IMG/VR virus record: IMGVR_UViG_3300031236_000995
Span: 1 to 42,320 of that record
Direction: 5' to 3' (one strand)
Source: a virus
Length of the DNA stretch: 42,320 nucleotides
Below are positions 5,741 through 42,320 of this stretch, piece after piece. Positions within the stretch are counted from its first letter, which is position 1, and each line of letters begins with the position of its first letter. The position numbers and the translations under genes are program-made. The notes under the pieces were generated by a model that saw only the letters and a list, made by a program, of their open reading frames with translations, searched no databases and was not told where the DNA came from.

Positions 5741-6076
5741 ATGCTGCGCTCGTTGACGGGGAGCGGTCGCGAACGCGACATCGACGATCAGCTCAAGCAA
5801 GCCGGGGCGCCAGACGAGCTACGAGCGGAAATCACGGCGAACTTCCGCGAACTCCGCGCATCTTTGCGCGACGCACAAATGGCGTTCCAAGCCGTCCTTG
5901 ACGCCAAGGCTGATGAGTCAACCAAACATGCCGTCGACGTGCGCAGGCTCGCCGAAACTGAGCTCGAACGCGAGCGTGCGCGAGGATGGGCGACGCTTTG
6001 GTGCGTCGTCGCGCTTACCGCGATCCTCACGCTGCTCGGCGTCCACGTCAGTTCCGAACCTTGGTGGCCGGTCTGA
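5741..6076 (+). CDS. Membrane-anchored coiled-coil protein, 111 aa
   Basis: ATG 5741 to a TGA that overlaps the integrase start (TGATG), so the two are coupled. Residues 12-85 are charged and helical, likely a coiled coil. A single hydrophobic segment (WATLWCVVALTAILTLLGVHV, about 82-102) lies near the C-terminus, giving a C-terminal membrane anchor. No family recognised. Its place in the lysogeny transcription unit suggests expression in the lysogen, where such proteins sometimes block superinfection; that role is only a guess. Confidence 0.65.
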   Translation: MLRSLTGSGRERDIDDQLKQAGAPDELRAEITANFRELRASLRDAQMAFQAVLDAKADESTKHAVDVRRLAETELERERARGWATLWCVVALTAILTLLGVHVSSEPWWPV

Positions 6077-7617
6077 TGCGCGTCGTCACCTACGCGCGCG
6101 TCTCGACGACCGCCCAGGGCGAGCGCGGCGCTTCCCTCGTCAACCAAAGCCGCAAGTTCGCTCTGTGGAAGGCCCGCGGCGGCCACGAGATCGTCGACTC
6201 CTACCAAGAGATGGAGTCCGCCAGCACCACCGTCCGACGCCGCCTGTTCTCCCGCATGCTCGAAGACCTCCCCGCCACCCGACCCGACTGCATCGTCATC
6301 GACTCGGCCGACCGGTTCAGCCGTAACCTCGAGGACACGTTCGAGGTCATCCGCCGCCTGCGCGAGCACGGGATCAATATCTGGCCCTTGGAGTGGGACC
6401 GCGACGATCCGCCCGACATCATCACCTACGACTCCCCCGATTACATCCGCTTCCGCGACGAGATCATCGCCGCTCAAGCCGAGGCCAAGCGCATCCGCGT
6501 GCGCCGCCAGCGCTCGATGCAAGGCCGGCGCGAGCGCGGCGCGACCCTCACGATGCGCGCCCCCTTCGGCCTGCAACGCGATCCCGCCGACCGCGATCGG
6601 CTCGCGCCGAGCCCCCAGGCCGGCATCGTCGCCGAGATCGACCGCCGCTACCTTGCGGGCGAGTCACCGCTGGCGATCCTGCGTTGGCTGGACTCCGAGG
6701 TACCCGGCGCCTGGAAGAGCCGTCCTGGCCTACGCAAGGCCCTCTTAAACCCGTCCTACGAGCTCGCCGGCGTCCGGTCCGCCCAGACGGCCGCGGCCAT
6801 CCGCGCGCTCCTGGCGACCCGCGAGACGCGCCACGGCCTCTACCGGCTGCACGACCACGAATTCACCGGCGTCTTCGCCTGCGGCCGGTGCGTCGCGATG
6901 GGCGTGGATCCCAAGAACGCGCTTATGGGGGAGCAGCTCGGCTACGGCCAGGCCGCTCAGCCGCCGCAGATGAACCTCGTCTGCCAGTCGGCCGGCAACA
7001 CCCTGGGGGCACGCCACCCGACCCTCTACATCCGCGTCTCGCGGATCGCCGGCGCCTGGGACCAGCTCTTGGCCGCGCTCGAGGTCGACCCCGCTGACGT
7101 CGACGCGCACGCGCGCCGCACGACCGCCGGCCAGGGCGATTCCAAGGTGCGCCGCCGGCGGCTCGAAAGAGCGCGCGCTCGACTCGATCAGGACGAGGCG
7201 GCCCTAGCGACGCGGCGTTCGCGCGCGCTGGACTTCCTCGCCGACGCCGAGCCGCGCGTCGTCGCGCAGGCCCGCAAGGCGCTCCTCGCGATCGACGCAG
7301 ACGAAGCGGAGCTCTACCTGCGCCGCGACGTCGTGCGCGGCGAACTCGCGCAGCTCGATCAGGCGGCCGCAACGATCGTGGACGTCGGCGCGGCGCTCGC
7401 GCGGTACCGCGAGCACTACGAACGTGCCAGCGTCCGCCAGCGCAACCTGCTCAACCGCGCGCTGTGCGCAGCCGTCGGCTCACACCCGATCGTCGCACGC
7501 GACGAAGATCACCGCTGGGGCACCGTCAGCGTCTCCTGGCCGGCGGTGATGACTGAACCGATCTTGGCGCCCTACCGAGCGTTCGCGCCGACGCTCAGCG
7601 CCGCGTGCGTCGTTTAG
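6076..7617 (+). CDS. int: Large serine recombinase (phage integrase)
   Basis: 513 residues from ATG 6076. The N-terminal resolvase domain (1-150) has TYARVSTTAQ with the nucleophile at Ser10, and DSADRFSRN further in. The recombinase domain follows (RAPFGLQRDP to NPSYELAGV, about 160-250), then a zinc-ribbon-like part with CGRC and one later Cys and His, then a long coiled-coil segment with many Arg and Ala (about 355-480). This order is that of large serine integrases, which join attP to attB without host factors. Its 3' end overlaps the convergent 7595-7831 gene by 23 bp. No attP could be identified nearby. Confidence 0.93.
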   Translation: MRVVTYARVSTTAQGERGASLVNQSRKFALWKARGGHEIVDSYQEMESASTTVRRRLFSRMLEDLPATRPDCIVIDSADRFSRNLEDTFEVIRRLREHGINIWPLEWDRDDPPDIITYDSPDYIRFRDEIIAAQAEAKRIRVRRQRSMQGRRERGATLTMRAPFGLQRDPADRDRLAPSPQAGIVAEIDRRYLAGESPLAILRWLDSEVPGAWKSRPGLRKALLNPSYELAGVRSAQTAAAIRALLATRETRHGLYRLHDHEFTGVFACGRCVAMGVDPKNALMGEQLGYGQAAQPPQMNLVCQSAGNTLGARHPTLYIRVSRIAGAWDQLLAALEVDPADVDAHARRTTAGQGDSKVRRRRLERARARLDQDEAALATRRSRALDFLADAEPRVVAQARKALLAIDADEAELYLRRDVVRGELAQLDQAAATIVDVGAALARYREHYERASVRQRNLLNRALCAAVGSHPIVARDEDHRWGTVSVSWPAVMTEPILAPYRAFAPTLSAACVV

Positions 7618-8474: not shown

Positions 8475-8768
8475 TCAGCCGCCGAGCTTCTTCGCTTCGG
8501 CCACGGCGAGCGACGTCAGGAACGCTGCGATCGTCGCCGGCGGCAGCTTCGCGAACTCTGCGTTGACCTCGGTTTCGACCGTGCCCTTCGCAGCGCTGAT
8601 GACGATGCCGGCGACGCCGGAAGCCTTGAGGTTGGCGATGGCGTTGTCGGCGAGCGTTTCGAGCGGGACTTCGCCAGCCGCGATCGCCGCGGTGAACGTC
8701 GCCTGAACGGTTGGGGATTCGAGAGCGGACACGAAGACGTCCGCGATGGACCCGATTTCGGTTGCCAC
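8475..8768 (-). CDS. Small helical phage protein, 97 aa
   Basis: GTG 8768 is used because AGGAG lies upstream and it directly follows the holin stop. Ala-rich amphipathic helices (DVFVSALESPTVQATFTAAI; ADNAIANLKASGVAGIVISA; IAAFLTSLAVAEAKKLGG). No family recognised. Position behind holin and endolysin suggests a lysis or virion accessory role. Confidence 0.6.
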   Translation of the reverse strand: MATEIGSIADVFVSALESPTVQATFTAAIAAGEVPLETLADNAIANLKASGVAGIVISAAKGTVETEVNAEFAKLPPATIAAFLTSLAVAEAKKLGG

Positions 8769-16638: not shown

Positions 16639-17142
16639 TCAGATCGTCGGCGGTGGCGGTGGTGCGCCGGCTGCGGGCTGGGCAAGGCCGAGCAGCTGCG
16701 CGAGATACGCGGCGTTCGACCCGTTCGGATCCGCGCCGTTGCTGCGCGCGGCGACCGGCGCGCTGCGCCGGGCTGGGGGCGCTCCGATCGGCGGGGCCGC
16801 CGATGCAGGAGCGCCCGACGCGCCGACGCCTAGCGACGGCATCGTCGTCGTCGGCACCGACGCCGCGGTCGGCGCGCCCGCCATCACCGGGCCCAGGTTC
16901 GCATCCTGCAAGGCGGGATCGGGACCGAGCGTCTTCGCCTGGTTGAGATAGTCGGCGATGTCGGACGCCTTCGCCCCTTGCACCTGATCGATCGCGGTCT
17001 GCGTGTTCTGTTCGGACTGCTGGTTGTTGCCGGTGGCCTGGCCGCTGCCGAACAGGCCGTTCAGCGCGTTGCCGATGAACTTCGCGACGATGACGGGGCG
17101 ATTGCGCGCGCCCTCGAGCGCAGCGCGGTCGATGTCGGCCAT
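16639..17142 (-). CDS. Virion-associated small protein, 167 aa
   Basis: ATG 17142 is used, two bases after the upstream stop; the extension to 17199 is Arg-rich shadow. N-terminal helix DIDRAALEGARNRPVIVAKF, a short hydrophobic patch (FIGNALNGLFGSG), Gln-rich centre and a Pro/Ala-rich tail ending PPPPPTI. No recognised family; grouped with the internal virion proteins by location and composition. Confidence 0.6.
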   Translation of the reverse strand: MADIDRAALEGARNRPVIVAKFIGNALNGLFGSGQATGNNQQSEQNTQTAIDQVQGAKASDIADYLNQAKTLGPDPALQDANLGPVMAGAPTAASVPTTTMPSLGVGASGAPASAAPPIGAPPARRSAPVAARSNGADPNGSNAAYLAQLLGLAQPAAGAPPPPPTI

Positions 17143-25450: not shown

Positions 25451-26416
25451 TTAGCCGTTCAGGATGTTCGCGTAGTAGCCGTTTGAGGCGGGCTTGCGGC
25501 ACTCGTAGTTGCCGTAGACGAAGACGTGACCCGTCTCCGTGTCCTGGTTGACGGGCTTCTGGAACCCGTCGAAGTGGAAGTTCACGTCCTTGTGCACCAC
25601 CATGCGGCAGTGATCCAAGTTGACGTAGTACATGTAGCCGGCCGGGCAGTGGCTGTCTTCGAGCACCGGCTTGCCCTGGAACGCGATGTTGTCGAAGCCC
25701 ATCGACGCGAGCGTCGAGTCGACGAAGCGTTCGTTGGGGGTGAGCGTCGCCCAGTACAGCGCGTACGAATTCTTCGTGGTGACGATCGCGTGGATCGTCT
25801 CCTCGTCGGTCTTCGTCTGCATATAGAGCGTCATCATCGACGCGGTCGAGAGCGTGGTTGGCGTGCCCGGGTTGAAGACCTGGGCCTGCCACCACGGGTT
25901 CGCCAGACGATCGATGCCCAGGTACACCTGGAAGCCCGACGCGTTGTTGACGCCGGCGGCGAAGCCGTCCCAGTCCTTGCCGCTGTTGGTCGTGCCGTTG
26001 GCGAAGACCTGAGCGGCCATCTTGTTGTAGAGGGCCAGGTACGCGGACTGGATCTTGTTCTTGACGAGGTCGAGCTGCTTGCGCTTGCCCGAGACGCGCG
26101 CCTTGTCGATCCCGTTGATGGTGACCGACACCTGCGCCTGCTTCCAGGGCAGCTCGTACGAGCTGAACTCTTCCTGCGCGTCGCTGGGCAGCACGTCGGC
26201 GCCCGAGTACGTCACCGCCGTGTCGTTGATCGCGACCAGGATCGGCTGCGAGATGATCGAGCCGCCGTCCTCGAGCACGATGCGCTTCTTGTGGCGCAGG
26301 AACCCGAGCCACGTGGCCGAGCCGTACTGGCCCGGGTCGATGATCGACGTGCGCAGGTTGCGCTCGACGAAGGCGTTGATTTCGCTAGTGCTGACGAACG
26401 GGATCCCAGTTGCCAC
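25451..26416 (-). CDS. Major capsid (coat) protein, 321 aa
   Basis: Recognised from coat-protein features: an N-arm (INAFVERNLRTSIIDPGQYG), GGSIISQPILVAINDTAVTY, the E-loop-like YELPWKQAQVSVTINGIDKA, the long helix LVKNKIQSAYLALYNKMAAQ, the FNPGTPTTLSTASMMTLYMQ segment, and the late P-domain pieces TLTPNERFVDSTLASMGFDN, FQGKPVLEDSHCPAG and MYYVNLDHCRMVV. This matches phage coat proteins with the HK97 fold. It follows the scaffold gene as expected. Start codon is GTG at 26416. Confidence 0.85.
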   Translation of the reverse strand: MATGIPFVSTSEINAFVERNLRTSIIDPGQYGSATWLGFLRHKKRIVLEDGGSIISQPILVAINDTAVTYSGADVLPSDAQEEFSSYELPWKQAQVSVTINGIDKARVSGKRKQLDLVKNKIQSAYLALYNKMAAQVFANGTTNSGKDWDGFAAGVNNASGFQVYLGIDRLANPWWQAQVFNPGTPTTLSTASMMTLYMQTKTDEETIHAIVTTKNSYALYWATLTPNERFVDSTLASMGFDNIAFQGKPVLEDSHCPAGYMYYVNLDHCRMVVHKDVNFHFDGFQKPVNQDTETGHVFVYGNYECRKPASNGYYANILNG

Positions 26417-26429
26417 GGGGCTTTACTCC

Positions 26430-27569
26430 TTACTTGAAACCGGCCGCGACCGCGCCGCCCGACATCCACGCGTCGACTGGGTCGACGTTGGGATCAGGGC
26501 GTGAGGGCGCCGGTCGCATGCTGGTGGGTGAAGCTCCCGGGCTCGTCAGGAGCGCGGGAACGGGCGCGGCAGTCGGAGCCGCGGTGCTGGCGCCGCTCGC
26601 AGCGGCAGCGTTCGCTTGGGCCTGGACGGCCTCGAGGATGTCCTTCATTCGCGCGACGGCGTCGGGCAGGCCGAGCTTCGGGTCGCTCTTGGCGAGATTG
26701 CTCGCGAACAGAGCGACCTGCTGAAGCAGCATCCGATTCGTCGCGAGGACCGGATAGGTCGTCTGTGCGTCGGTGAGCTCGCGGTTGAACCGGTCGCGCG
26801 CATCGGTCGCGTCGCGATCGCGCTTCCACGCTTGCAACTCGGTGATCGTCTGTCGCGTCTGCGGATCGAGCTGCGCGGCGGGAGGCTGCGTCGGCTGAGC
26901 CGGCGGCGTCGGTGCGGCGGCGCCGTTCTCGTCGTCGTAGAACTTGAGGCACTTGCCGAGGTACTCGGCACGCGCCGGATCGGCCAAGTACGCGTCGACG
27001 AACGCGGCCGTCTGCGGCTCGCTCTTGAGCCGCTGGAGGATCGGCGTGAGCAATCGCGCGGCGACGTCCGGCGCAAGGCCGATCGCGTCGCGGTACGCCT
27101 TCGTCTCGTTCTGGAACGCGATGCGCTGTTGCAGGCCGGCGACGACCTGCTCGCGCGTCCACTCGACGCCCTCAGCGAGCGCGAACTTCTCGGTCGGCTC
27201 GAACGTCTTTGGCGCCGGCGTTGCCGCAGCGGCGGCCGCGGCGGTTGCGTCCGGTGTCGCCGCGTCGGCGGCAGCCGGAGCGGCCGTCGACGCGGTGCCT
27301 GGCGCGGCACTCGCGCTCGCCGGCGTGACGGTCGATCCCGAGGGAGCCGCGTCGGTCGTACTCGCAGCGGTCGACTCGTCCGTCTCCGGATGCTCGGCGA
27401 TCCAGGCAGCGACGTCGTCGCCGCCGCCCAAAGCGAGATCTTCGGGAGTACGAGTCGCAGTCGAAGGAGCGTCCGCTGTTGCGGCCGCTGCGGTGGAAGG
27501 AGCGCTCGCGGGCGCAGCCGGTTGCGGCGCGCCGTTCAGACCGAGCGGTTTCAAATCTTTTTCAGGCAT
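26430..27569 (-). CDS. Scaffolding protein, 379 aa
   Basis: Directly upstream of the coat gene. An Ala/Thr/Pro-rich N-terminal half (about 20-125) is followed by a helical, charged C-terminal half (EGVEWTREQVVAGLQQRIAF, LLTPILQRLKSEPQTAAFVD, LDPQTRQTITELQAWKRDRD, DAVARMKDILEAVQAQANAA). A disordered head plus a helical coat-binding end fits scaffolding proteins of this phage type. It should guide coat assembly and then leave the procapsid. Start ATG 27569. Confidence 0.8.
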   Translation of the reverse strand: MPEKDLKPLGLNGAPQPAAPASAPSTAAAATADAPSTATRTPEDLALGGGDDVAAWIAEHPETDESTAASTTDAAPSGSTVTPASASAAPGTASTAAPAAADAATPDATAAAAAAATPAPKTFEPTEKFALAEGVEWTREQVVAGLQQRIAFQNETKAYRDAIGLAPDVAARLLTPILQRLKSEPQTAAFVDAYLADPARAEYLGKCLKFYDDENGAAAPTPPAQPTQPPAAQLDPQTRQTITELQAWKRDRDATDARDRFNRELTDAQTTYPVLATNRMLLQQVALFASNLAKSDPKLGLPDAVARMKDILEAVQAQANAAAASGASTAAPTAAPVPALLTSPGASPTSMRPAPSRPDPNVDPVDAWMSGGAVAAGFK

Positions 27570-27907: not shown

Positions 27908-27947
27908 CGGAGCAAACGAAAACGCCCCGCGTTTCCACGAGGCGTTT
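27908..27947 (-). terminator. Intrinsic terminator on the minus strand
   Basis: AAACGCC (plus 27920-27926) pairs with GGCGTTT (27941-27947), extended inward by about three pairs. On the minus strand the stem is followed by TTTTCGTTT, a T-rich tail. It closes the stretch transcribed from the promoter at 28131-28160. Confidence 0.75.
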
Positions 27948-28124
27948 CCTGATCGGCGGGCGCACGTCGCCGCCGCATTTCGCCGATCGCGCAGGTCGGG
28001 CCGATCTTTCGCCGGTTACCACCTACCCGCCGAAGCGGCGCCCTGTCACGGGCGGAGTCGTTGAGGCGTCCCTCTCGTCACTCGGTGAAGCTGATGCGCC
28101 CCAGCGTTCGGTGCCGATTACTGC
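27908..28124 (-). ncRNA. Candidate structured phage non-coding RNA, about 215 nt
   Basis: A stretch with no plausible gene lies between a strong-looking promoter (TTGACG-N18-TAGGGT, 28131-28160) and an intrinsic terminator. It holds several hairpins: an 8-bp perfect stem GATCGGCG/CGCCGATC (27951-27958 with 27981-27988) with an inner GGCG/CGCC pair; CCGC-UUCG-GCGG with a cUUCGg tetraloop (28027-28038); CGCCC/GGGCG (28039-28043 with 28050-28054); and GAGG/CCUC (28063-28066 with 28071-28074). It matches no riboswitch or RNA family I could recall. It could be a free RNA (packaging or regulatory) or a leader with an attenuator for the coat unit. Confidence 0.5.
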
Positions 28125-28130
28125 GCGAGC

Positions 28131-28160
28131 ACCCTATCACAGCGGCGCGGCGCGCGTCAA
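28131..28160 (-). promoter_or_regulatory. Promoter TTGACG-N18-TAGGGT in front of the candidate RNA
   Basis: Minus strand TTGACG at 28160-28155, 18-bp spacer, TAGGGT at 28136-28131. Both hexamers and the spacer length are identical to the promoter at 40491-40520. It starts just after the stop codon of the 28162 gene, so it cannot serve that gene. Predicted +1 near 28124. Confidence 0.65.
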
Positions 28161-28161
28161 C

Positions 28162-28539
28162 CTACGGCTCAGCGTTGTAGAAGTCGTCGATCCGCTGCCG
28201 CAGCGGCTTGGCGTGCGGCTTCCTGCGGACCGTGGCCTTCTTCGGTGAAGCCATCTGACGCGCCAGCTTTTTGGGCGACGGGCAACTCTTGCACCGAAAC
28301 CCGACGGTCCGATGGCCCTCCTGGACCGGCGCCATCGCGCTGCGGCCCCGCTCTTTGCCGCACGTCACGCACGCCGTCAGCTTCGTCGTGTCCCTGATGA
28401 AGCGCTCAGGGTCGTGCTTGCCGATGTCCTTTTCGACGCGGATGGCTTGGACGATGCGTGATACCTGTACTGCTGCGGCACCGCCGTGAAACAACCTCGT
28501 CGACCGCTTCGCCCAGGGCGTCTTACTCGGGAGCGCCAT
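28162..28539 (-). CDS. Zinc-ribbon phage protein, 125 aa
   Basis: ATG 28539. A basic N-terminus (KTPWAKRSTRLFHGG), then CVTCGKERGRSA and later FRCKSCPSP form a C-x2-C ... C-x2-C zinc ribbon (about 57-86), followed by a very basic tail (KKATVRRKPHAKPLRQRIDD). Probably a nucleic-acid-binding protein of the head region. Last gene of the portal-side unit, ending where the candidate RNA promoter begins. No family assigned. Confidence 0.65.
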   Translation of the reverse strand: MALPSKTPWAKRSTRLFHGGAAAVQVSRIVQAIRVEKDIGKHDPERFIRDTTKLTACVTCGKERGRSAMAPVQEGHRTVGFRCKSCPSPKKLARQMASPKKATVRRKPHAKPLRQRIDDFYNAEP

Positions 28540-28571: not shown

Positions 28572-28964
28572 CTACGATTCGTCCGCGCCCGGCGGCGGCG
28601 ACGCCGGAGCTGGTGTCGCCGACAGTCCGCCGGCGAGGTCGACGCCTTCGTTCGCACTCGGTGCCGGCGGCGCAACACCGGCCGGCTTACCGCCAGCGAC
28701 GATCGCCTGGATCCACGCGTCGATCTGCGGGCCCATCGCGGGGATGTCGCCCTTGAGCTCGCGCAGCGCCGCGACGGCAGCCGACGCTTTCTCTTTCGCC
28801 GTCGTCGACGTCGACCCGGTCTGCATCGGCCCGACACCGGTCGGCGCGGGCGGCAGGCCCGGCATCTTCGGCGGCGCGCCGAGCTGCGCGCCCGGCGGAG
28901 CCGGCGCCCCACCAGCGGCGGGAGCACCGCCGGCGACCTGATCGAGAAGTCCTAGATACGCCAC
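28572..28964 (-). CDS. Pro/Ala-rich head protein, 130 aa
   Basis: GTG 28964. Long Pro/Ala/Gly-rich N-terminus, one helical segment (TAKEKASAAVAALRELKGDI to GPQIDAWIQAIVAGG, about 54-92), then a Pro/Ala tail. It follows the portal gene by 6 bp. Function unknown; structural role by place. Confidence 0.55.
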   Translation of the reverse strand: MAYLGLLDQVAGGAPAAGGAPAPPGAQLGAPPKMPGLPPAPTGVGPMQTGSTSTTAKEKASAAVAALRELKGDIPAMGPQIDAWIQAIVAGGKPAGVAPPAPSANEGVDLAGGLSATPAPASPPPGADES

Positions 28965-28970
28965 GTTGAT

Positions 28971-31091
28971 CTACCTCGTCGAGCTGAGCGCTGCGCGCGT
29001 TGGGATGTTGGAGATGGGAGGCTGCGGTTTCTTCGCGCTACGCGCGGGCTTGGACGGTGCCGGCCCCGGCTTTTTCTTCGAGACGGCCTTCTGCTGCGCC
29101 GCCATCGCGTCTTGACGCTCCATGCGCGGCAGCTCGGTCTTCCAACCGTCCAGACGGAACTTCTGATGCCACCACCGCCGGTCGACCAGGTGCAGCTTGT
29201 AGAGGTCCATCCAACGATTCCACAACCCAGCCGGCGAGGTCGAGAGCGAGCTGATCGGCACAACGCCGAACTCGACCGGCCCTTGCAGATCGGGGTTGGT
29301 GTACTCGCGGAACTTCACCTCAGCGATGCCAGCCGACGGCACGACCACCGGCTCGTCGCCGTCCGCTCCGCCGAAGACCTGCGGCGGCCGCTCGACTCGC
29401 TCGCGCAGCGGCCGATCGCCGCGATCGTACTGCTGGATCAACTGCACGCGCAGCTTGCCGATGCGCCCGATCCCCGTCTCGAGGTTACGCACCTTGAGCC
29501 GGATCGGCGCCGCGCCGCTCTCCTGCAGTTGGTCGACCATCGCCCACGACGTGTTCGCGCCTGGCGACCCGCCGCGTACGGCCTCTGTGATCCCCGACAC
29601 CTCGCTCATCGCCGTGTTGAGCAAGCCGTACAGCTCGACGAACTGCTGCGGCATCGGCGGCATCTGCAACGGCTGGAGCGAGTCCATCTCTTCCATCGGG
29701 ATGATCGCGCCGGGTTTGTTCTTAATCGACGACGCGTTGACGCCGCCGCCCTTCTTGAGCTTCCACGACGGGTTGCCCGTCTTCTCCAGGATGTCGTACA
29801 CCTGCGAGAGGATACGGTTCGAAGCGATTTGCGAATCTTTGAGCGCGAGCGGTTCGCCTTGTCCCCAAAACGCGCCGACGTCGTAGTCCTTCCACATCGC
29901 AAACGGGAAGCCGTCGGTCTGGAATGGGTTGGGGATGTCGCGCAGCAGCACGCGCGCGCCGGCGATGACGACGAGCCGGCCGTTGGGGTACTTCTCCCGC
30001 CACGCCGGCTCCATGACCGGCACGCGCTTGGGCCGGCGCAGCGGCATGAGGAACAGCGAGCCGTCGATCGGGCTCACCTGGAGCTGGTGGCCGAAGACCT
30101 CCATCTCGTACAGGCCCGTCGTCGGGTCGACGGCTTCGGTCGTCTGCGGCACGCCGTTGACGACCTTCTGCTTCTGGTACGCTTCGAGCGTCTCGTCGCG
30201 CAGCCAGCACTCCATGATCTCGACCGAGTCACCGTCGGCCAGATCGTAGTCCGTGCCCAGCGGCGAGTATTGCGGACCGACGATGTTGCCGTTGACGTTC
30301 GCCGCGCTGATGATCCGCGACGCTTCGTTCGAGTCGCCCTCGCGGATGAAGTCGCGGTCCGTCTCGCTCGAGTCGAGCGTCCGCATCCCCTTGACCTTAT
30401 GAACCACGGCGGCGCGCTCGGGGTAGTTGCGCCGCACCCACCCCATCGTCTGCTCTTCGACGTGGAGGATGAACTCGGCGTCGTCGACGCAGGTCGCTGT
30501 GCGGTTCGAGAAGATTCGATACGGCACGATCGGCGTCGCGATGTGACGCCCGCGGCCGCCATCCGCCTTCGGATCGAACGCGATCTTCATGAACCCGGTG
30601 CCCCACACCAGGCCGTACAGGACGAAGATGCTGATCTTCGCCTGCATATCGTTCTCGTCCCAATCGCGATCGACTAGCTTGCGCAGCAGGTCGGCGGCGT
30701 CTTCTGTCCCAGGGACGAGCGGATCGACGGAGATGCGCGGCTTGTTGTCCGTCATCACCGCTTGCATGAAGGTGATGAAGGCGCGAATCTTGTTGATCGT
30801 GATCTTCGCCCGCCAGGTCGGCCAGCGCGACGGCCAGACGTTTCCGATGAACAGATCCCAGGCGACGTCGAACGTCTCGTACGGCTCGCGCGCTTTGCGC
30901 GCGTCGTCGTAGAGCGCCGAGCAGTAGCGCAGAATCTTGAGCTTGCCCTGCTCCTCTTCGGTCAGCTCCGGGAAGTCGTCAGCGACGTCGTCGTCGCCTT
31001 CAGCGTCCTCGCGCTCTTGCGCGCGCTGCATCGCGTAGACGTCGTGACGAACGAGGTTCGGCTTCGAGTCGCGCTCGAGCGTGATCGCCAC
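28971..31091 (-). CDS. Portal protein, P22-like, 706 aa
   Basis: GTG 31091. Long portal protein with typical pieces: WDLFIGNVWPSRWPTWRAKI, NKIRAFITFMQAVMTDNKPR, LVDRDWDENDMQAKISIFVL, GTGFMKIAFDPKA, IVPYRIFSNRTAT, GFPFAMWKDYDVGAFWGQGE, SQIASNRILSQVYDILEKTG, AIIPMEEMDSLQPLQMPPMP and SEVSGITEAVRGGSPG. It forms the dodecameric channel at the packaging vertex that docks terminase and later the adaptor. The acidic N-terminus and Lys/Pro-rich C-terminus (KKKPGPAPSKPARSAKKPQP) are probably flexible. Second gene of the unit started by the promoter near 31.5 kb. Confidence 0.85.
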   Translation of the reverse strand: MAITLERDSKPNLVRHDVYAMQRAQEREDAEGDDDVADDFPELTEEEQGKLKILRYCSALYDDARKAREPYETFDVAWDLFIGNVWPSRWPTWRAKITINKIRAFITFMQAVMTDNKPRISVDPLVPGTEDAADLLRKLVDRDWDENDMQAKISIFVLYGLVWGTGFMKIAFDPKADGGRGRHIATPIVPYRIFSNRTATCVDDAEFILHVEEQTMGWVRRNYPERAAVVHKVKGMRTLDSSETDRDFIREGDSNEASRIISAANVNGNIVGPQYSPLGTDYDLADGDSVEIMECWLRDETLEAYQKQKVVNGVPQTTEAVDPTTGLYEMEVFGHQLQVSPIDGSLFLMPLRRPKRVPVMEPAWREKYPNGRLVVIAGARVLLRDIPNPFQTDGFPFAMWKDYDVGAFWGQGEPLALKDSQIASNRILSQVYDILEKTGNPSWKLKKGGGVNASSIKNKPGAIIPMEEMDSLQPLQMPPMPQQFVELYGLLNTAMSEVSGITEAVRGGSPGANTSWAMVDQLQESGAAPIRLKVRNLETGIGRIGKLRVQLIQQYDRGDRPLRERVERPPQVFGGADGDEPVVVPSAGIAEVKFREYTNPDLQGPVEFGVVPISSLSTSPAGLWNRWMDLYKLHLVDRRWWHQKFRLDGWKTELPRMERQDAMAAQQKAVSKKKPGPAPSKPARSAKKPQPPISNIPTRAALSSTR

Positions 31092-31556: not shown

Positions 31557-33422
31557 TCATCGCATCCACCCCAAGGCTTCCTCGGCGCCGCCCTCGTCCG
31601 CGTCGCGAATCCAGCCCAGACCGTCCTCCTCGAACGGATCGAACGGGACGTCGCCCGCATCGTCACCGCCGAACTCGGGCACCTCGATCGCGTCGGCTTG
31701 CTCTTGCGATCGCCCGGCGTAGATGCGCAGCAGAACGCACAGGATCTCAAGAGCGCTCACCGTGTCGTCGTGTCGGCCCGCCGCGCCGCCGTAATCACCC
31801 GGATCGCCAAAGCCGCGCTGCTCGCGGTACGTGCTCATCTCCAAGATCGTGGTCGCGTCGGGGACGTCGATCATATCGCGCTCGATCATGCGCCGCGTCC
31901 AGTCGACCATCAGCGGCTTGGTCTTCGCGTTCGACTCCCAGCCGATGCCCTTGGTGCGCGGGAAGCCGTGCGTGCCCGGCTGCCGATAGCGGTACAGATT
32001 CGGATAGAGATTCTTCTGATCGATGTAGGTGCACATCGTGACGCCGGGGCCCGTCCACTCCGGCGCGAGCATCGGCATCTCGACTTCGTCGCCGACGCGA
32101 ATCGCCATCAGCCACGAGAGGGCGCTTGCGACCTCGGCGAACAGCACGGGGTTGAGGTGGCCGCGCCAGGTCATGATCAACTCGTCGCGGTCCCACGGCT
32201 TGAGCACGCCGACCTGGATGACCGAGAAGTCGCCGTCCTCGGTGTCGGGATTGCCCCGGCCGACGTCGCAGGCGAGGAAGACCCGCTCGCCGTTGACGGG
32301 CCAGCGGTAGACCTTCAGGCTCTTGAGCGACCCGGAGTTGACGTGCGACTTGAACCCGCGCGAACGTGCTTCGCCCGGGGTGAGGAACTGCGGCCGGCGG
32401 ACGACGTCGTGCGGCGCGGCGTTCTCGTTCTTCGCATCCGACTCGCCCCAGTAGATATCGCCCTCGGCGAGCGGGTGACGCTTCTTCGCAGCGAGCCGCT
32501 TGATGTGCTTGCGGCCGAAGACGACGGTACCCGAGGTCAAGAACGCCGTCTCCAGATCAGTCGGGTACTCCTGATCGAAAAGGTCCTCGTCGCGGTTGAA
32601 CGTTGGCCCCGCGAGCATCATGCGGCGCCAGTTGAACTGCTCGAGCGTGATCGCCGGATACAGGCGCAGCAAGTCCTTCTCTTGCTGCGTGAGCGACAGC
32701 TCGAACGCGTGCCGCTTCTCCGGCGCGATCGGGATGGCGAACGAGAGCGTCATCTCGTGCCAGGGCAGGAAGAGCAACCGCGTGACGCCGTACTCGCCGG
32801 CGCGCGACGAGCGCGACGCGGCATCCATGCACTGCTGATGGAAGAACGCACCCGGGCCCGTCTGACCGTTCGGCGTCGACTCCATGTAGAGCGCCGAGTG
32901 CGGGTCGGTCGAGAGCGTCGGGTAGAGCGAGCGAAAGAGCTCGTGGCCGTCCTTGTACCGGCTGACCTCGGTCGCGTGGATGTTCTGGAAGCCGTAGCCC
33001 AGGTACGCGTCGATCGAGCGTGCCGTCGCGACGTAGATCCGCGAGTCGAGCGGCGAGTCGAACTCGATGCGGTCCTTGGGCGGGTTGTTGCGGTAGACCG
33101 CAGGGAGCTGCGGCCGCAGCCGAATGGGCTCGCGCCCAATCGAGGCCGCGACGTCGGGCGGCACGAGCCACTCGGGCGTGTGCGCCCAGAAGCGCCGGCA
33201 CATATCCAGGACGTTTTCGCTGGGGTTCTTCTCGTTGGCGACGATCAGCGACCACGTGTTCGCGTGCTGCGTGGTGTCGTCGTAGATGATCGCCTCGACG
33301 CCCGTTGAAATGCCCGCGCGCCTCGCCTTGCAGATGACGACGCGCACGGGCAGATGCTTGGCACCGAACCACTGGTGCAGGCGGTAGAGCTTGAGCTGCG
33401 CCTCGTTGAAACGCAGCGGCAC
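31557..33422 (-). CDS. terL: Terminase large subunit, start uncertain
   Basis: 621 residues from GTG 33422. The Walker A-like KARRAGIST is at 32-40, followed by IVANEKNPSENVLDMCRRFW, YGFQNIHATEVSRYKDG (Walker B region), LYMESTPNGQTG (motif III), and in the nuclease half LACDVGRGNPDTEDGDFSVI and RHDDTVSALEIL with the metal-binding Asp residues. It cuts and pumps DNA into the head. The frame stays open upstream to about 33543 and there encodes FRIENQFRIKVKRG, which looks like the conserved piece before VPLRFNEAQ, but has no ATG, GTG or TTG. A coupled GTG at the small-gene stop (33545) opens another frame for seven codons. A frameshift is likely; see findings. Confidence 0.88.
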   Translation of the reverse strand: MPLRFNEAQLKLYRLHQWFGAKHLPVRVVICKARRAGISTGVEAIIYDDTTQHANTWSLIVANEKNPSENVLDMCRRFWAHTPEWLVPPDVAASIGREPIRLRPQLPAVYRNNPPKDRIEFDSPLDSRIYVATARSIDAYLGYGFQNIHATEVSRYKDGHELFRSLYPTLSTDPHSALYMESTPNGQTGPGAFFHQQCMDAASRSSRAGEYGVTRLLFLPWHEMTLSFAIPIAPEKRHAFELSLTQQEKDLLRLYPAITLEQFNWRRMMLAGPTFNRDEDLFDQEYPTDLETAFLTSGTVVFGRKHIKRLAAKKRHPLAEGDIYWGESDAKNENAAPHDVVRRPQFLTPGEARSRGFKSHVNSGSLKSLKVYRWPVNGERVFLACDVGRGNPDTEDGDFSVIQVGVLKPWDRDELIMTWRGHLNPVLFAEVASALSWLMAIRVGDEVEMPMLAPEWTGPGVTMCTYIDQKNLYPNLYRYRQPGTHGFPRTKGIGWESNAKTKPLMVDWTRRMIERDMIDVPDATTILEMSTYREQRGFGDPGDYGGAAGRHDDTVSALEILCVLLRIYAGRSQEQADAIEVPEFGGDDAGDVPFDPFEEDGLGWIRDADEGGAEEALGWMR

Positions 33423-33762: not shown

Positions 33763-33946
33763 CGTCTTCTTCCGGTGCGAATCCGGCCGACGCCGCATCG
33801 GCCGTCGCTGCGATCGCGTGCAGCTTCTCGGAGTTGATCGCCTCCTTGCTGAGCTCGGCGTCGGCCAGCTCGAGCGCCCTCATGTAGACGCTGCGCGAAC
33901 GCTCGGCGATCTGCTTGTCGTTGTAGGTCCGGACTTCCACGGTCAC
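33740..33946 (-). CDS. Small helical protein, 68 aa
   Basis: GTG 33946 overlaps the stop of the LuxR-type gene (GTGA) and overlaps the next gene by 23 bp. Helix-rich (YNDKQIAERSRSVYMRALEL, ADAELSKEAINSEKLHAIAA) with an acidic tail EEDDGDESSF. Unknown; possibly part of the packaging set. Confidence 0.6.
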   Translation of the reverse strand: MTVEVRTYNDKQIAERSRSVYMRALELADAELSKEAINSEKLHAIAATADAASAGFAPEEDDGDESSF

Positions 33947-34320
33947 TCCTCGGCTTTGACGTCCGCGATGAACGCGGAGGGGTTGATAATCCCGAGCGCC
34001 ACTGCGATGACGCAGAGGTTCGCTCGGTTCATGGCGTTGAGCCGGCGCGACAGCCGGTTGACGGCGTGCTCGACTTGCTTGGGCGTCACGCTCAGCTCAG
34101 CCGCGATCTCGACGTCGCGGAAGCCCGCGGCGATCCGCTCCAGCACGGTGCGATGCAGGTCGTCCAGCAGCGCGTAGTCATCCGAGAAGAGCACGTGGTA
34201 GGCGTCGCAGTCGGTGCAGAACGTGATCTTGCACCGCAGGCGAAGGTACTTCATGACGCGCCGCTTGCCCGCCTCAGCCTCGTCCTTCGCGTACGCCGTG
34301 ACGACGCACTTAGTCGTCAT
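33943..34320 (-). CDS. LuxR-type HTH phage regulator, 125 aa (candidate late activator)
   Basis: ATG 34320. Residues 22-52 form a small domain with CTDC (35-38), which may bind metal. Residues 55-110 match the LuxR/GerE helix-turn-helix: LHRTVLERIAAGFRDVEIAA, ELSVTPKQVEHAVNRLSRR and LNAMNRANLCVIAVALGI. No receiver or autoinducer domain is present, so it is a stand-alone DNA-binding unit. LuxR-type activators commonly bind a palindrome centred near -42, which is where the GGGGATTCCCC element lies in four late promoters of this phage. Acting as the late switch is my inference; a role as small terminase is the main alternative. Confidence 0.75.
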   Translation of the reverse strand: MTTKCVVTAYAKDEAEAGKRRVMKYLRLRCKITFCTDCDAYHVLFSDDYALLDDLHRTVLERIAAGFRDVEIAAELSVTPKQVEHAVNRLSRRLNAMNRANLCVIAVALGIINPSAFIADVKAEE

Positions 34321-34945
34321 CAGCAACCACGTTCTCCGGGAGGTCTTCAGCAACGTCGATCGGCGTCGGAGCGCCAGGCTCGTAGCCGAGCAGGTCCAGC
34401 CCGTTCGTCCCGCCGCCACCCTCGATCGCGGCCTGCCCGGCGCGCGCGCGGTCTTGCTCGCCGAACATTTGCCACACGTTCACCGTGCGCTTGTCGACGT
34501 TGAACGTGGAGTCGGGGGTCTTCTGCCAGCCCAGCGTCCGCGCGAGCGTACCGAACGCGCGCGTCGCGTTCTCGTCCGTCCCGTGCAAGGCTATCTGCAC
34601 CTGGCGCGCGATCATGGCGAGGCGCTGACCCTCGAAGTCCTCGAGGTTTGCCGTCATCTTCGCCCGCACGCCCTCGGTATCGAAGACCAGCTTCGCCATG
34701 TTGCGCAGGTCGATGATGGAGCGGTCCTTGGTGTCGAACCCGAGCTGGCGCAGCGCGGCGTACATATCGCCCGTGTGGACGAAGAGCGCGCGCACGGCGA
34801 GCGCGTCGCGCACGTCCTGCGCGAGCGTGAGGAACGTCGCGTCGGGATCCGGGTTGAGCTCCATCTCTAGACGCTCGCGCAAGGCGGCGTTGGCGACGCG
34901 CAGCTCCTCGATCTCGGCCCTGCGGCCCGGTCTAGCGGCCAACAC
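34310..34945 (-). CDS. Phage protein, 211 aa; possible small terminase
   Basis: GTG 34945 overlaps the upstream gene by 14 bp; the frame further up is shadow. A short coiled coil (RRAEIEELRVANAALRERLE) leads into a helical domain (FLTLAQDVRDALAVRALFVH, MYAALRQLGFDTKDRSIIDL, LAMIARQVQIALHGTDENAT, RAFGTLARTLGWQ) and a C-terminal tail ending with acidic residues. Coiled coil plus helical domain and a place three genes above the large terminase would suit a small terminase, but no motif confirms it. Confidence 0.6.
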   Translation of the reverse strand: MLAARPGRRAEIEELRVANAALRERLEMELNPDPDATFLTLAQDVRDALAVRALFVHTGDMYAALRQLGFDTKDRSIIDLRNMAKLVFDTEGVRAKMTANLEDFEGQRLAMIARQVQIALHGTDENATRAFGTLARTLGWQKTPDSTFNVDKRTVNVWQMFGEQDRARAGQAAIEGGGGTNGLDLLGYEPGAPTPIDVAEDLPENVVADDD

Positions 34946-38196: not shown

Positions 38197-38384
38197 GGCG
38201 CCGGCGGCTTTCGCAGCAAGTCGTCGGCGTTGAACGCCGGCAACGCGGGGACGCCCGTCCCGCCAGGCGTGAGCTGCGTGAAGAGCGCGGTCAAGTCCCG
38301 CCGATCCCATGGGCCGCCACCGGGCGCCGCCTGGTCGCGCGGATCGTCGCTGGGCTCGAAAGCCGCCGCCTCGTCGGCGCTCAC
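38193..38384 (-). CDS. Small Pro/Asp-rich phage protein, 63 aa
   Basis: GTG 38384 overlaps the stop of the RyR-domain gene (GTGA). Mostly disordered; ends LTALFTQLTPGGTGVPALPA then FNADDLLRKPPAP. Unknown. Confidence 0.55.
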   Translation of the reverse strand: MSADEAAAFEPSDDPRDQAAPGGGPWDRRDLTALFTQLTPGGTGVPALPAFNADDLLRKPPAP

Positions 38385-38797
38385 GCCGGCGTTTCCGTCC
38401 CGAGCAGCGCGCGCACGACGGCGATGTAGAGCGAATCTTTCGCTTGCTGATCCGGCGGCAGCCGCTCGTACGGCACGAAGCAGGGGTGCTGCTTGGCCGC
38501 CGCGTCCTTGACCGACCCATAGGTCCAGCCGTCGCGCTCCTTCTCGGCTAGCCAGCTCCCGTGTGAGTCGGCCGGGGTCGCGTCGGGATGCTCGCGTAAA
38601 AAGCGCACGCCGGCGATCGCGCTCTGTACTTGCCACGTCGGCGCCTCGAACCAGGGCGGCTGCGAGTCGTCACCGATGGTCCAGCAGTACGCGCGGTTCG
38701 CCTCATGCGCGACGTGGGCGATCCGCGTGTCGGCGATCTCCCTCGAATCCGCGGTGGTGCTGCGCGCCTCCACCTGTCCGACTTGCTCGTCGCTCAT
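38381..38797 (-). CDS. Phage RyR-domain protein, 138 aa
   Basis: ATG 38797. The RyR (ryanodine receptor repeat-like) signature is clear: IAHVAHEANRAYCWTIGDDS (26-45), QPPWFEAPTWQVQSAIAGVR, SHGSWLAEKERDGWTYGSVK (78-97) and HPCFVPYERLP (104-114). Bacterial and phage RyR domains are single small domains thought to bind nucleotide-derived ligands; the ligand is unknown. It may sense or bind signalling nucleotides during infection. The overlap with both neighbours places it in the 40.5 kb operon. Confidence 0.85.
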   Translation of the reverse strand: MSDEQVGQVEARSTTADSREIADTRIAHVAHEANRAYCWTIGDDSQPPWFEAPTWQVQSAIAGVRFLREHPDATPADSHGSWLAEKERDGWTYGSVKDAAAKQHPCFVPYERLPPDQQAKDSLYIAVVRALLGTETPA

Positions 38798-40490: not shown

Positions 40491-40520
40491 ACCCTACCGG
40501 ACGACCGCCCGTCCCGTCAA
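40491..40520 (-). promoter_or_regulatory. Promoter TTGACG-N18-TAGGGT of the 40.5 kb operon
   Basis: Minus strand TTGACG (40520-40515), 18-bp spacer, TAGGGT (40496-40491). The spacer contains a 5-bp inverted repeat GGACG/CGTCC (40499-40503 with 40510-40514). Downstream, ACTCGCGGCATGG is identical to the sequence at the early promoter's start codon (5020-5008), which ties the two promoters together. Confidence 0.7.
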
Positions 40521-40908: not shown

Positions 40909-40937
40909 TTGACAGGGCCCCGGACCTCGCCTAGACT
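40909..40937 (+). promoter_or_regulatory. tRNA promoter TTGACA-N17-TAGACT
   Basis: TTGACA (40909-40914), 17-bp spacer, TAGACT (40932-40937), 15 bp before the tRNA. A clean host housekeeping promoter and a useful internal reference for the host -10. Confidence 0.8.
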
Positions 40938-40952
40938 AAGCGTCGTCCCCCC

Positions 40953-41029
40953 GGGCCAATAGCTCAGTTGGTTAGAGCGCATGCTTGATAAGCATGAGGT
41001 CCCTGGTTCGAATCCAGGTTGGCCCACCA
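40953..41029 (+). tRNA. tRNA-Ile (anticodon GAT)
   Basis: All arms pair: acceptor GGGCCAA/TTGGCCC, D arm GCTC/GAGC, anticodon stem CATGC/GCATG with loop TTGATAA (anticodon GAT at 40987-40989), T arm CCTGG/CCAGG with TTCGAAT. The 3' CCA is encoded. It lies next to the phage boundary, but no second copy of its 3' end is visible, so use as attachment site is unproved. Confidence 0.97.
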
Positions 41030-41040
41030 TGAGCCGCAGG

Positions 41041-41411
41041 ATGCCGATGGAGCCACGCGCAGTCGTCCTGCGCGAAGAGCGTCCTGACGACATCACAGCG
41101 ATCCGCGAGGTCGTGACGGCTGCGTTCGGGGGGCAGGCTGAGGCGACGTTGGTCGACGCACTGCGCGACGCGACGGGATCGGATCAGCGCTTATTCGCGA
41201 GGCCATCAGCCGCGCGAGACCTGATTGGACCGCGATCTTCGTTCTCGGCGATCCGCGCCTCTACGGGCGCTTCGGCTTCGACGTCCGTCTCGCGACGGAC
41301 TTTGCGTCCCCCTACGCCGGACCACACTTCATGGCGCTCGCGCTCACCGGCACGCTGCCCACGTCGTCGGGAATCCTCCGCCACGCCCCGGCGTTCGCCG
41401 CGCTCTCCTAG
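41041..41411 (+). pseudogene. Decayed GNAT acetyltransferase (YhbS-like), internal deletion
   Basis: From ATG 41041 the frame gives a normal GNAT start (RAVVLREERPDDITAIREVV, TAAFGGQAEATLVDALRDA). In another frame ending at TAG 41411 lies the rest: GIGSALIREAISRARPDWTA, IFVLGDPRLYGRFGFD and YAGPHFMALALTG, a very typical YhbS-type end. The two parts meet near 41180, so roughly 40-50 codons of the fold (core strands and part of the acetyl-CoA site) are missing, with a frame change. The product would be inactive. Confidence 0.8.
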
Positions 41412-41420
41412 AAGCGCGTC

Positions 41421-42320
41421 TCACTTCCGTTTCAGCGCTTCCAGCTCTTCAAGCGTGCGAGGCCAGTCGCGACCTAAGAGGCGCGACAAGCTGCGGTCGG
41501 CGAGGAGCTTGCCGTCCGTTTGGCAGCGGGCGCAATAGTTGGTCTCGTTGTCGGCGTAGCGGATGCGCTGGATCGGCTCGCCGCAACGGGGACAGGGCTG
41601 TCCGTACCGACCGTGCACGACCATGTCTTTGCGGAAGGCGGTGACCTTCTCGGGGAAGGCGGCGTCCGCTTCGCTGCCGAGACGATCGATCCACTCCTGG
41701 AGGACGCTGCGCGTCGCGGCGAACAGCCGCTCCCACTCAGGCGGCGTGAGCCTGTGGGTGAGCGCGATCGGCGAGAGCTGCGCCGCGTGCAGGATCTCAT
41801 CGGAGTAGGCGTTGCCGATACCGCTCAGGATCCGCGGATCGGTCAGCGCGCGTTTGAGCGTGGGGTTCTCCCGCATCAAGGCGGCGCGAAACGTATCGAG
41901 GTCGGCCGAGAAGACGTCGATGCCGCCGGGGTCGAGCGACCGCAGGTCCGCTTCGCCGGCGATGAGGTGCAAGGACGCGCGGCGCTTCGTGCCGGCTTCG
42001 GTGACGACGAGCGACCCGTTGGGGAAGTCGAAGGCGGCCAGCTGTTGCCGCCCGGCCAGCATCGCGCCGGGCGGCTTCCAATGCAGCCGGCCGGCGATCA
42101 TCAGGTGCAGCACGAGCCACAGGTCGCCGTCGAGTCCGATCGCGATGCGCTTGCCGACGCGGCGCAGCTCGCGCACCCTCCGGCCTTCGACCGCCGTCAG
42201 GGGCGGCTGCGCGGTTCGCAGCAGAAACGGGTTCGCCAGCCGGACGCGTTCGAGCGGCTGGCCGACGATACGGGGCTCCAGCGCACGGAGGTACGCGGCG
42301 ACGTCCGGCAGTTCGGGCAC
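41421..42320 (-). CDS. Fpg-family DNA glycosylase, 299 aa
   Basis: GTG 42320 gives MPELPDV, the invariant start in which Pro2 is the nucleophile and Glu3 the helper. Lys57 (VGKRIAIGL) matches the conserved beta-hairpin lysine, LHLMIAGRLHW is the void-filling region, and RILSGIGNAYSDEILHAAQL is the helix-two-turn-helix. The C-terminal zinc finger has CPRC and CARC 16 residues apart. It would remove oxidised purines and related lesions and cut the strand. HLMIAGRL differs from the E. coli Fpg form, so a Fpg/Nei variant with altered lesion choice is possible. Complete, with the start at the window edge. Confidence 0.92.
   Translation of the reverse strand: MPELPDVAAYLRALEPRIVGQPLERVRLANPFLLRTAQPPLTAVEGRRVRELRRVGKRIAIGLDGDLWLVLHLMIAGRLHWKPPGAMLAGRQQLAAFDFPNGSLVVTEAGTKRRASLHLIAGEADLRSLDPGGIDVFSADLDTFRAALMRENPTLKRALTDPRILSGIGNAYSDEILHAAQLSPIALTHRLTPPEWERLFAATRSVLQEWIDRLGSEADAAFPEKVTAFRKDMVVHGRYGQPCPRCGEPIQRIRYADNETNYCARCQTDGKLLADRSLSRLLGRDWPRTLEELEALKRK

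Follow-up and report, generated by a model that had tools for sequence, protein, structure and literature searches.

Typical morons encode proteins. Regulatory small RNAs encoded by prophages, such as DicF, IsrK, and PinT, are short, bounded by a promoter and a terminator, and act mainly by short base-pairing regions. In the case of the HK022 put RNA, the folded RNA itself lets the polymerase read through. The P22 moron locus pid, which encodes an 86-amino-acid protein, was recognised because related phages have its insertion site empty or otherwise occupied (PMC3573128). Accessory prophage loci are often expressed in lysogens (PMC7067206). For the PR'-tR' module of phage 21, it is established that Q brings about antitermination, and it does so via DNA sites in the promoter (PMC6606751).

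The locus described here lies in a 42,320-bp IMG/VR virus record, analysed over its whole length and referred to as the window. The original prediction placed a phage-encoded structured RNA in a gene-free region of about 215 nucleotides between the portal and coat units. Like phage morons (P22 pid, the accessory loci of Salmonella prophages), it is an extra locus among late genes, and its site is empty or differently filled in relatives. Morons are also transcribed autonomously, as the RNA would be from its own predicted promoter and terminator. Unlike pid, the product is an RNA without an ORF, and it is transcribed in the same direction as its neighbours, whereas pid is transcribed divergently. 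The locus resembles DicF, IsrK, and PinT in being a short promoter- and terminator-bounded RNA gene on a prophage. It differs from them in conserving a closed, multi-branched core with joining strands and in having no sequence relation in Rfam.

Two other phage RNAs invite comparison. The lambdoid PR'-tR' late leader (lambda 6S RNA) and the HK022 put RNA are likewise terminated transcripts of about 200 nucleotides upstream of virion genes. Late leaders are constant and essential and act via promoter DNA sites and Q, whereas most relatives lack this RNA, and what is conserved in it is the RNA fold. The phi29 pRNA is also a phage-encoded multi-helix RNA, but the packaging machinery differs, packaging-competent relatives lack the RNA, and there is no Rfam match to it.

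Genomic Context

The genes around the locus form a minus-strand series of terminase large subunit, portal, a small protein, p125, the RNA, a basic protein, a scaffold-like protein, and the major head protein (Table 1). The interval between the portal and coat units can thus be narrowed to that between the p125 gene and the basic-protein gene, within the terminase-portal and scaffold-coat block. The basic-protein gene was found in every relative whose region was read. Comparison with relatives showed p125 to be confined to the window phage. The p125 protein has no match in Pfam, PHROGs, or PADLOC, and PADLOC gave no match for the genes adjoining the RNA. The p125 gene is probably a second accessory gene beside the RNA.

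Table 1. Positions of the RNA locus, its parts, and the neighbouring genes in the window.
Feature	Position	Strand	Remarks
Terminase large subunit (phrog_2)	31557-33422	minus	
P22-like portal	28971-31091	minus	
Conserved small protein	28572-28964	minus	
p125, small CxxC..CxxC protein gene	28162-28539	minus	Leaderless promoter-like start (TAGGATCGCGGC-ATG) of its own
Promoter TTGACG-N18-TAGGGT	28131-28160	minus	-35 at 28160-28155, spacer 18, -10 at 28136-28131
Whole predicted non-coding RNA, about 213 nt	27914-28126	minus	5' end inferred from -10 box, 3' end from terminator
Multi-branched core, conserved	27989-28126	minus	L013 homologue at 8621-8766; alifold, pairs kept, CM R1
Closing stem P1	28126-28121/27994-27989	minus	
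First hairpin	28117-28108	minus	
P2, 6 pairs	28106-28101/28015-28010	minus	
Hairpin after P2 5' strand	28100-28089	minus	
P4	28083-28055	minus	
P5, CGCCC-RUGACA-GGGCG	28054-28039	minus	
P6, UUCG hairpin CCGC-UUCG-GCGG	28038-28027	minus	
Conserved joining strand GUAGGUG..AA	28026-28016	minus	
Last core hairpin	28004-27996	minus	
Extra 3' hairpin	27951-27988	minus	8-bp perfect stem GAUCGGCG/CGCCGAUC; as such not conserved in L013
Intrinsic terminator	27914-27947	minus	AAACGCCUCGUG-GAAA-CGCGGGGCGUUU (27947-27920), U-rich tail to 27914
Short Lys/Arg-rich (basic) protein gene	27802-27638	minus	GTG start; opens basic-scaffold-coat unit
Scaffold-like protein	26430-27569	minus	
Major head protein	25451-26416	minus	

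The window encodes a serine integrase (5986-7617) together with RecE and RecT. Its right end (40909-42320) is a host-type flank with a tRNA-Ile(GAT), whose promoter is TTGACA-N17-TAGACT, and an Fpg/MutM-type glycosylase gene. On account of the integrase and the tRNA-Ile/Fpg flank, the window appears to be a prophage that runs into host sequence on the right. The phage reads as temperate and podovirus-like. The coat protein found only distant prophage relatives (27-32% identity) in 299 Pseudomonadota genomes, and none in 296 Actinomycetota genomes.

Elsewhere in the window, a protein with a RyR domain (PF02026, E 5.7e-10) is encoded at 38381-38797, and a LuxR-type (GerE) regulator at 33943-34419 lies in the same half. 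ARAGORN placed a tRNA-Gly at 16811-16892 that the Rfam tRNA model did not report at its gathering score, and this is probably a false call.

Promoter, Terminator, and Predicted Extent of the RNA

The promoter and the intrinsic terminator named in the original prediction are both present on the minus strand; a simple promoter/terminator scanner passed over the two owing to its thresholds. The TGA-TAGGGT of the promoter can also be read as an extended -10. The window has four sites of the form TTGAC[AG]-N16-18-TAnnnT, where Markov sequences give an expectation of 0.1, and they precede the tRNA-Ile gene, two leaderless genes, and the RNA. In those two leaderless genes, the ATG lies 6-9 nucleotides past the -10. 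The -10/discriminator motif of the RNA promoter, TAGnnT(N)CTCGCG, is repeated at 40496, 28551, and 5023 on the minus strand, and the discriminator itself (GCTCGCGC) resembles that of three leaderless genes in the window. All three CGCGGCATG strings in the window are leaderless starts, one being that of p125. Because of the excess of such sites and the motif common to leaderless starts, the RNA promoter is probably real, and the 5' end of the RNA is expected to coincide with the start of the closing stem, at its first nucleotide.

The leaderless genes (minus strand, 40520-40479, 28551-28537, and 5047-5009) have the motif TAGnnT(N)CTCGCGGC-ATG in common. They may constitute a class of accessory genes that depends on the host polymerase for expression.

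The terminator is a strong one, a 12-pair stem with two G-U pairs and a GAAA loop. It is the best of six hairpin-plus-U-run matches in a crude scan of both strands of the 42 kb.

None of the frames between 27979 and 28161 contains an ORF of at least 60 amino acids, and the G+C-rich window as a whole has 260 such ORFs. The predicted transcript of about 213 nucleotides thus holds no credible ORF, in agreement with the gene-free region first described. The window copy and its homologue, described below, have no long conserved reading frame in common and align with single-base gaps; a protein-coding reading of the locus was rejected for lack of such a frame.

The Homologous Locus

A homologous stretch is present in one other lineage, that of L013, L006, and L023 (contig 3300014501_000068; 25 kb, partial, with no Pfam integrase). 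It occupies the same syntenic place, between a p130 homologue and the basic-protein gene. The L013 phage is 60% identical to the window phage in its portal and 61% in its coat protein. With the window RNA as the sole query, nhmmer found only this stretch in 635 kb (E=0.0044). The two cores are identical at 81 of 135 positions (60%), with identical blocks of 10-11 nucleotides in loops and stems alike. Conservation is highest in ACGCUGGGGC, in the P5 hairpin and its RUGACA loop, and in the joining strand GUAGGUG..AA.

The L013 copy has its own extended -10, TGC-TAAAAT, with one terminator ahead of the promoter and another behind the RNA. The latter is in the same place as that of the window and is unrelated to it.

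Structure and Covariation

The 8-base-pair perfect stem, the cUUCGg-capped hairpin, and the further hairpins of the original prediction were all found on the minus strand. RNAalifold was applied to a structure-blind MAFFT alignment of the window and L013 copies. The consensus consists of a closing stem, the 6-pair P2, and hairpins both inside and outside P2. Its energy (-28.1) lies below the mean of the shuffles (-16.9), with z -2.84 and 6 of 500 shuffles as good. All 28 consensus pairs are standard in both sequences, and shifting the partners by 1-3 columns left only 29-44% pairing. Double-sided changes occur in 5 of the 28 pairs (two in P1 and one each in the first hairpin, P4, and P6), and one-sided changes occur in two. 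The 28 standard pairs with their five double-sided changes were equalled by 12 of 500 shuffles; these counts come from two independent sequences, the minimum for a test of covariation. With a looser MAFFT setting the alifold z was -0.95, so the covariation is partly dependent on the alignment. A hand-fitted alignment gave z -7.9, which is biased by construction and was not counted as evidence.

The folding energy of the single sequences is ordinary, with z -1.7 for the reported region and, for the core, -1.2 in the window and +0.4 in L013. By conservation and covariation the locus is more than chance, whereas folding energy alone is unremarkable.

Rfam 15 (4227 models) was searched with both copies. 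None matched at the gathering score or meaningfully up to E 10, and the best matches were terminator-like chance ones, scoring far under the gathering threshold. This agrees with the earlier remark that the region fits none of the riboswitches compared (FMN, c-di-GMP, c-di-AMP, TPP).

Distribution among Relatives

Searches with the coat and portal proteins collected over 20 contigs. One of these, L009, is a twin of the window phage and is 100% identical. At least 14 further relatives, in which the region is intact, have no such RNA, and most have just a short leader there. In L002/L003, L058, and L060, the site holds other, unrelated inserts or terminated units. In L058 (7515-7640), TTGTCA-N18-TAGGGT precedes a terminated transcript that is unrelated and about 100 nucleotides long or less. 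The same insertion site holds, in L002 (2840-3400, identical in L003), a different intergenic unit of about 400 nucleotides containing two hairpins that resemble terminators. This stretch was considered as a divergent homologue and rejected, as it has no covariance model match and no motif in common with the RNA.

A protamine-like Lys/Arg-rich gene stands just before the scaffold gene in L011, L012, L016, L017, L018, L041, and L060-L064. In many relatives the basic gene is preceded by a conserved leader, AAATCTT.GGGAGAGGAGG, which could mask the ribosome site by base-pairing with it.

The portal tree places the window outside a supported clade (96/91) to which L013 belongs, and the two are not sister lineages; the presence of the RNA is therefore patchy. 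We interpret this patchy occurrence as repeated loss or horizontal gain.

The covariance model (R1) detected the RNA in two lineages only among 33 related virus records. It gave no match in 296 Actinomycetota genomes, a search with strict filters and no positive control. Exact-pattern scans of IMG/VR and 84,980 species genomes, which would miss divergent copies, revealed no third lineage. Motif-pattern matches beyond L009 and L013 were read as chance or coding, and Blastn against named phages and plasmids returned no real match. Since the patterns would miss divergent copies, further lineages may belong to the family.

Discussion

The structured RNA gene is very probably real. Its promoter, terminator, absence of ORFs, syntenic homologue, common fold, and patchy occurrence are well supported. 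The syntenic homologue with compensatory changes supports the original claim of a phage-encoded structured RNA, and the check for such changes came out favourably for two sequences only, the window and L013. As a candidate RNA family with two members it is new, although its general kind is known.

The explanation that we somewhat favour is a free-standing, trans-acting accessory ('moron'-type) non-coding RNA gene of a temperate phage. It is preferred because the RNA has its own promoter and terminator, is dispensable in close relatives, and sits at a site of variable content beside the window-specific p125 gene. A host sigma-70-type promoter would start the RNA at the closing stem. The transcript would fold into the multi-branched core, where the unpaired GGGGC, the RUGACA loop, and GUAGGUG..AA would meet at junctions, and would end at the intrinsic terminator, ahead of the basic-protein/scaffold/coat unit. 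Having both a promoter and a terminator to itself, it would be produced in the lysogen whether or not the late genes are expressed. It may then act in trans, its folded core most likely binding a protein of the host or the phage. That this core is the working part of the RNA is suggested by the conserved junction strands.

The alternative that survives best, although unlikely, is a terminated late leader, in which the short transcript keeps ending at the terminator until either an antitermination factor or the folded RNA permits readthrough into the basic-scaffold-coat genes. The order of promoter, about 200 nucleotides, terminator, and structural genes resembles the phage 21 PR'-tR' module, and a junction-rich nascent RNA could act on the polymerase. 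However, Q needs no conserved multi-branched RNA, and no Q-like protein was recognised among the proteins scanned. With terminase and portal upstream, such a leader would serve just part of the late genes. A late leader also predicts constant presence in the family, whereas the RNA is patchy, and at least 14 relatives run the basic-scaffold-coat operon without it, from a promoter-like TAnnnT before the basic gene. This TAnnnT occurs in relatives with or without the RNA, and the window and L013 seem to have one.

Less probable again is a ligand- or protein-sensing (riboswitch-like) attenuator in the 5' leader of the basic-scaffold-coat unit. That unit encodes virion proteins, which would be unusual for a metabolite switch; relatives do without the RNA, and no Rfam riboswitch matches it. 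The closing stem, the core with conserved joining strands, and the nearby terminator do look like an aptamer with an expression platform. In L013, GCCGA/UCGGC could compete with the 5' arm of the terminator, but no terminator-overlapping antiterminator strand is visible by eye in the window.

It is improbable that there is no RNA gene at all and that the locus is a conserved DNA element, a decayed ORF, or a chance similarity. The presence of two lineages only, the modest similarity between the window and L013 (E=0.0044), and the ordinary folding energy of the core would fit such a case. Against them stand the same syntenic place, the identical blocks in loops and stems, the double changes in four helices, and a promoter and terminator in both copies. 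A packaging or virion-assembly RNA like the phi29 pRNA, to which the location among terminase, portal, scaffold, and coat genes beside a very basic protein might point, is the least probable reading. The RNA is lacking in at least 14 relatives that share the gene order and have homologous terminase and portal, and the phage itself carries a terminase large subunit (phrog_2) together with a P22-like portal rather than the phi29 motor.

Among the three functions originally offered, a regulatory RNA therefore fits best and a packaging RNA is unlikely. An attenuated leader is conceivable but less likely, as all relatives have a separate promoter-like element for the basic-protein/coat unit.

Returning to the accessory RNA gene, it is rather doubtful that it founds a new class of junction-structured prophage RNAs in which the folded core, and not base pairing, is active. 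A tentative example of such a class, to be held no more firmly, would be an RNA-only moron made by the lysogen as a decoy or inhibitor of a host protein (polymerase, nuclease, or a defence system).

At present the locus is a well-bounded candidate RNA family. Accessory prophage loci have been sought almost solely as proteins. A promoter-RNA-terminator locus swapped at one site among the virion genes suggests that RNA genes also move as cargo, and such cargo can be found by comparing one insertion site across phages. If it is true that the folded core binds a host protein, the RNA would be a new kind of phage effector.
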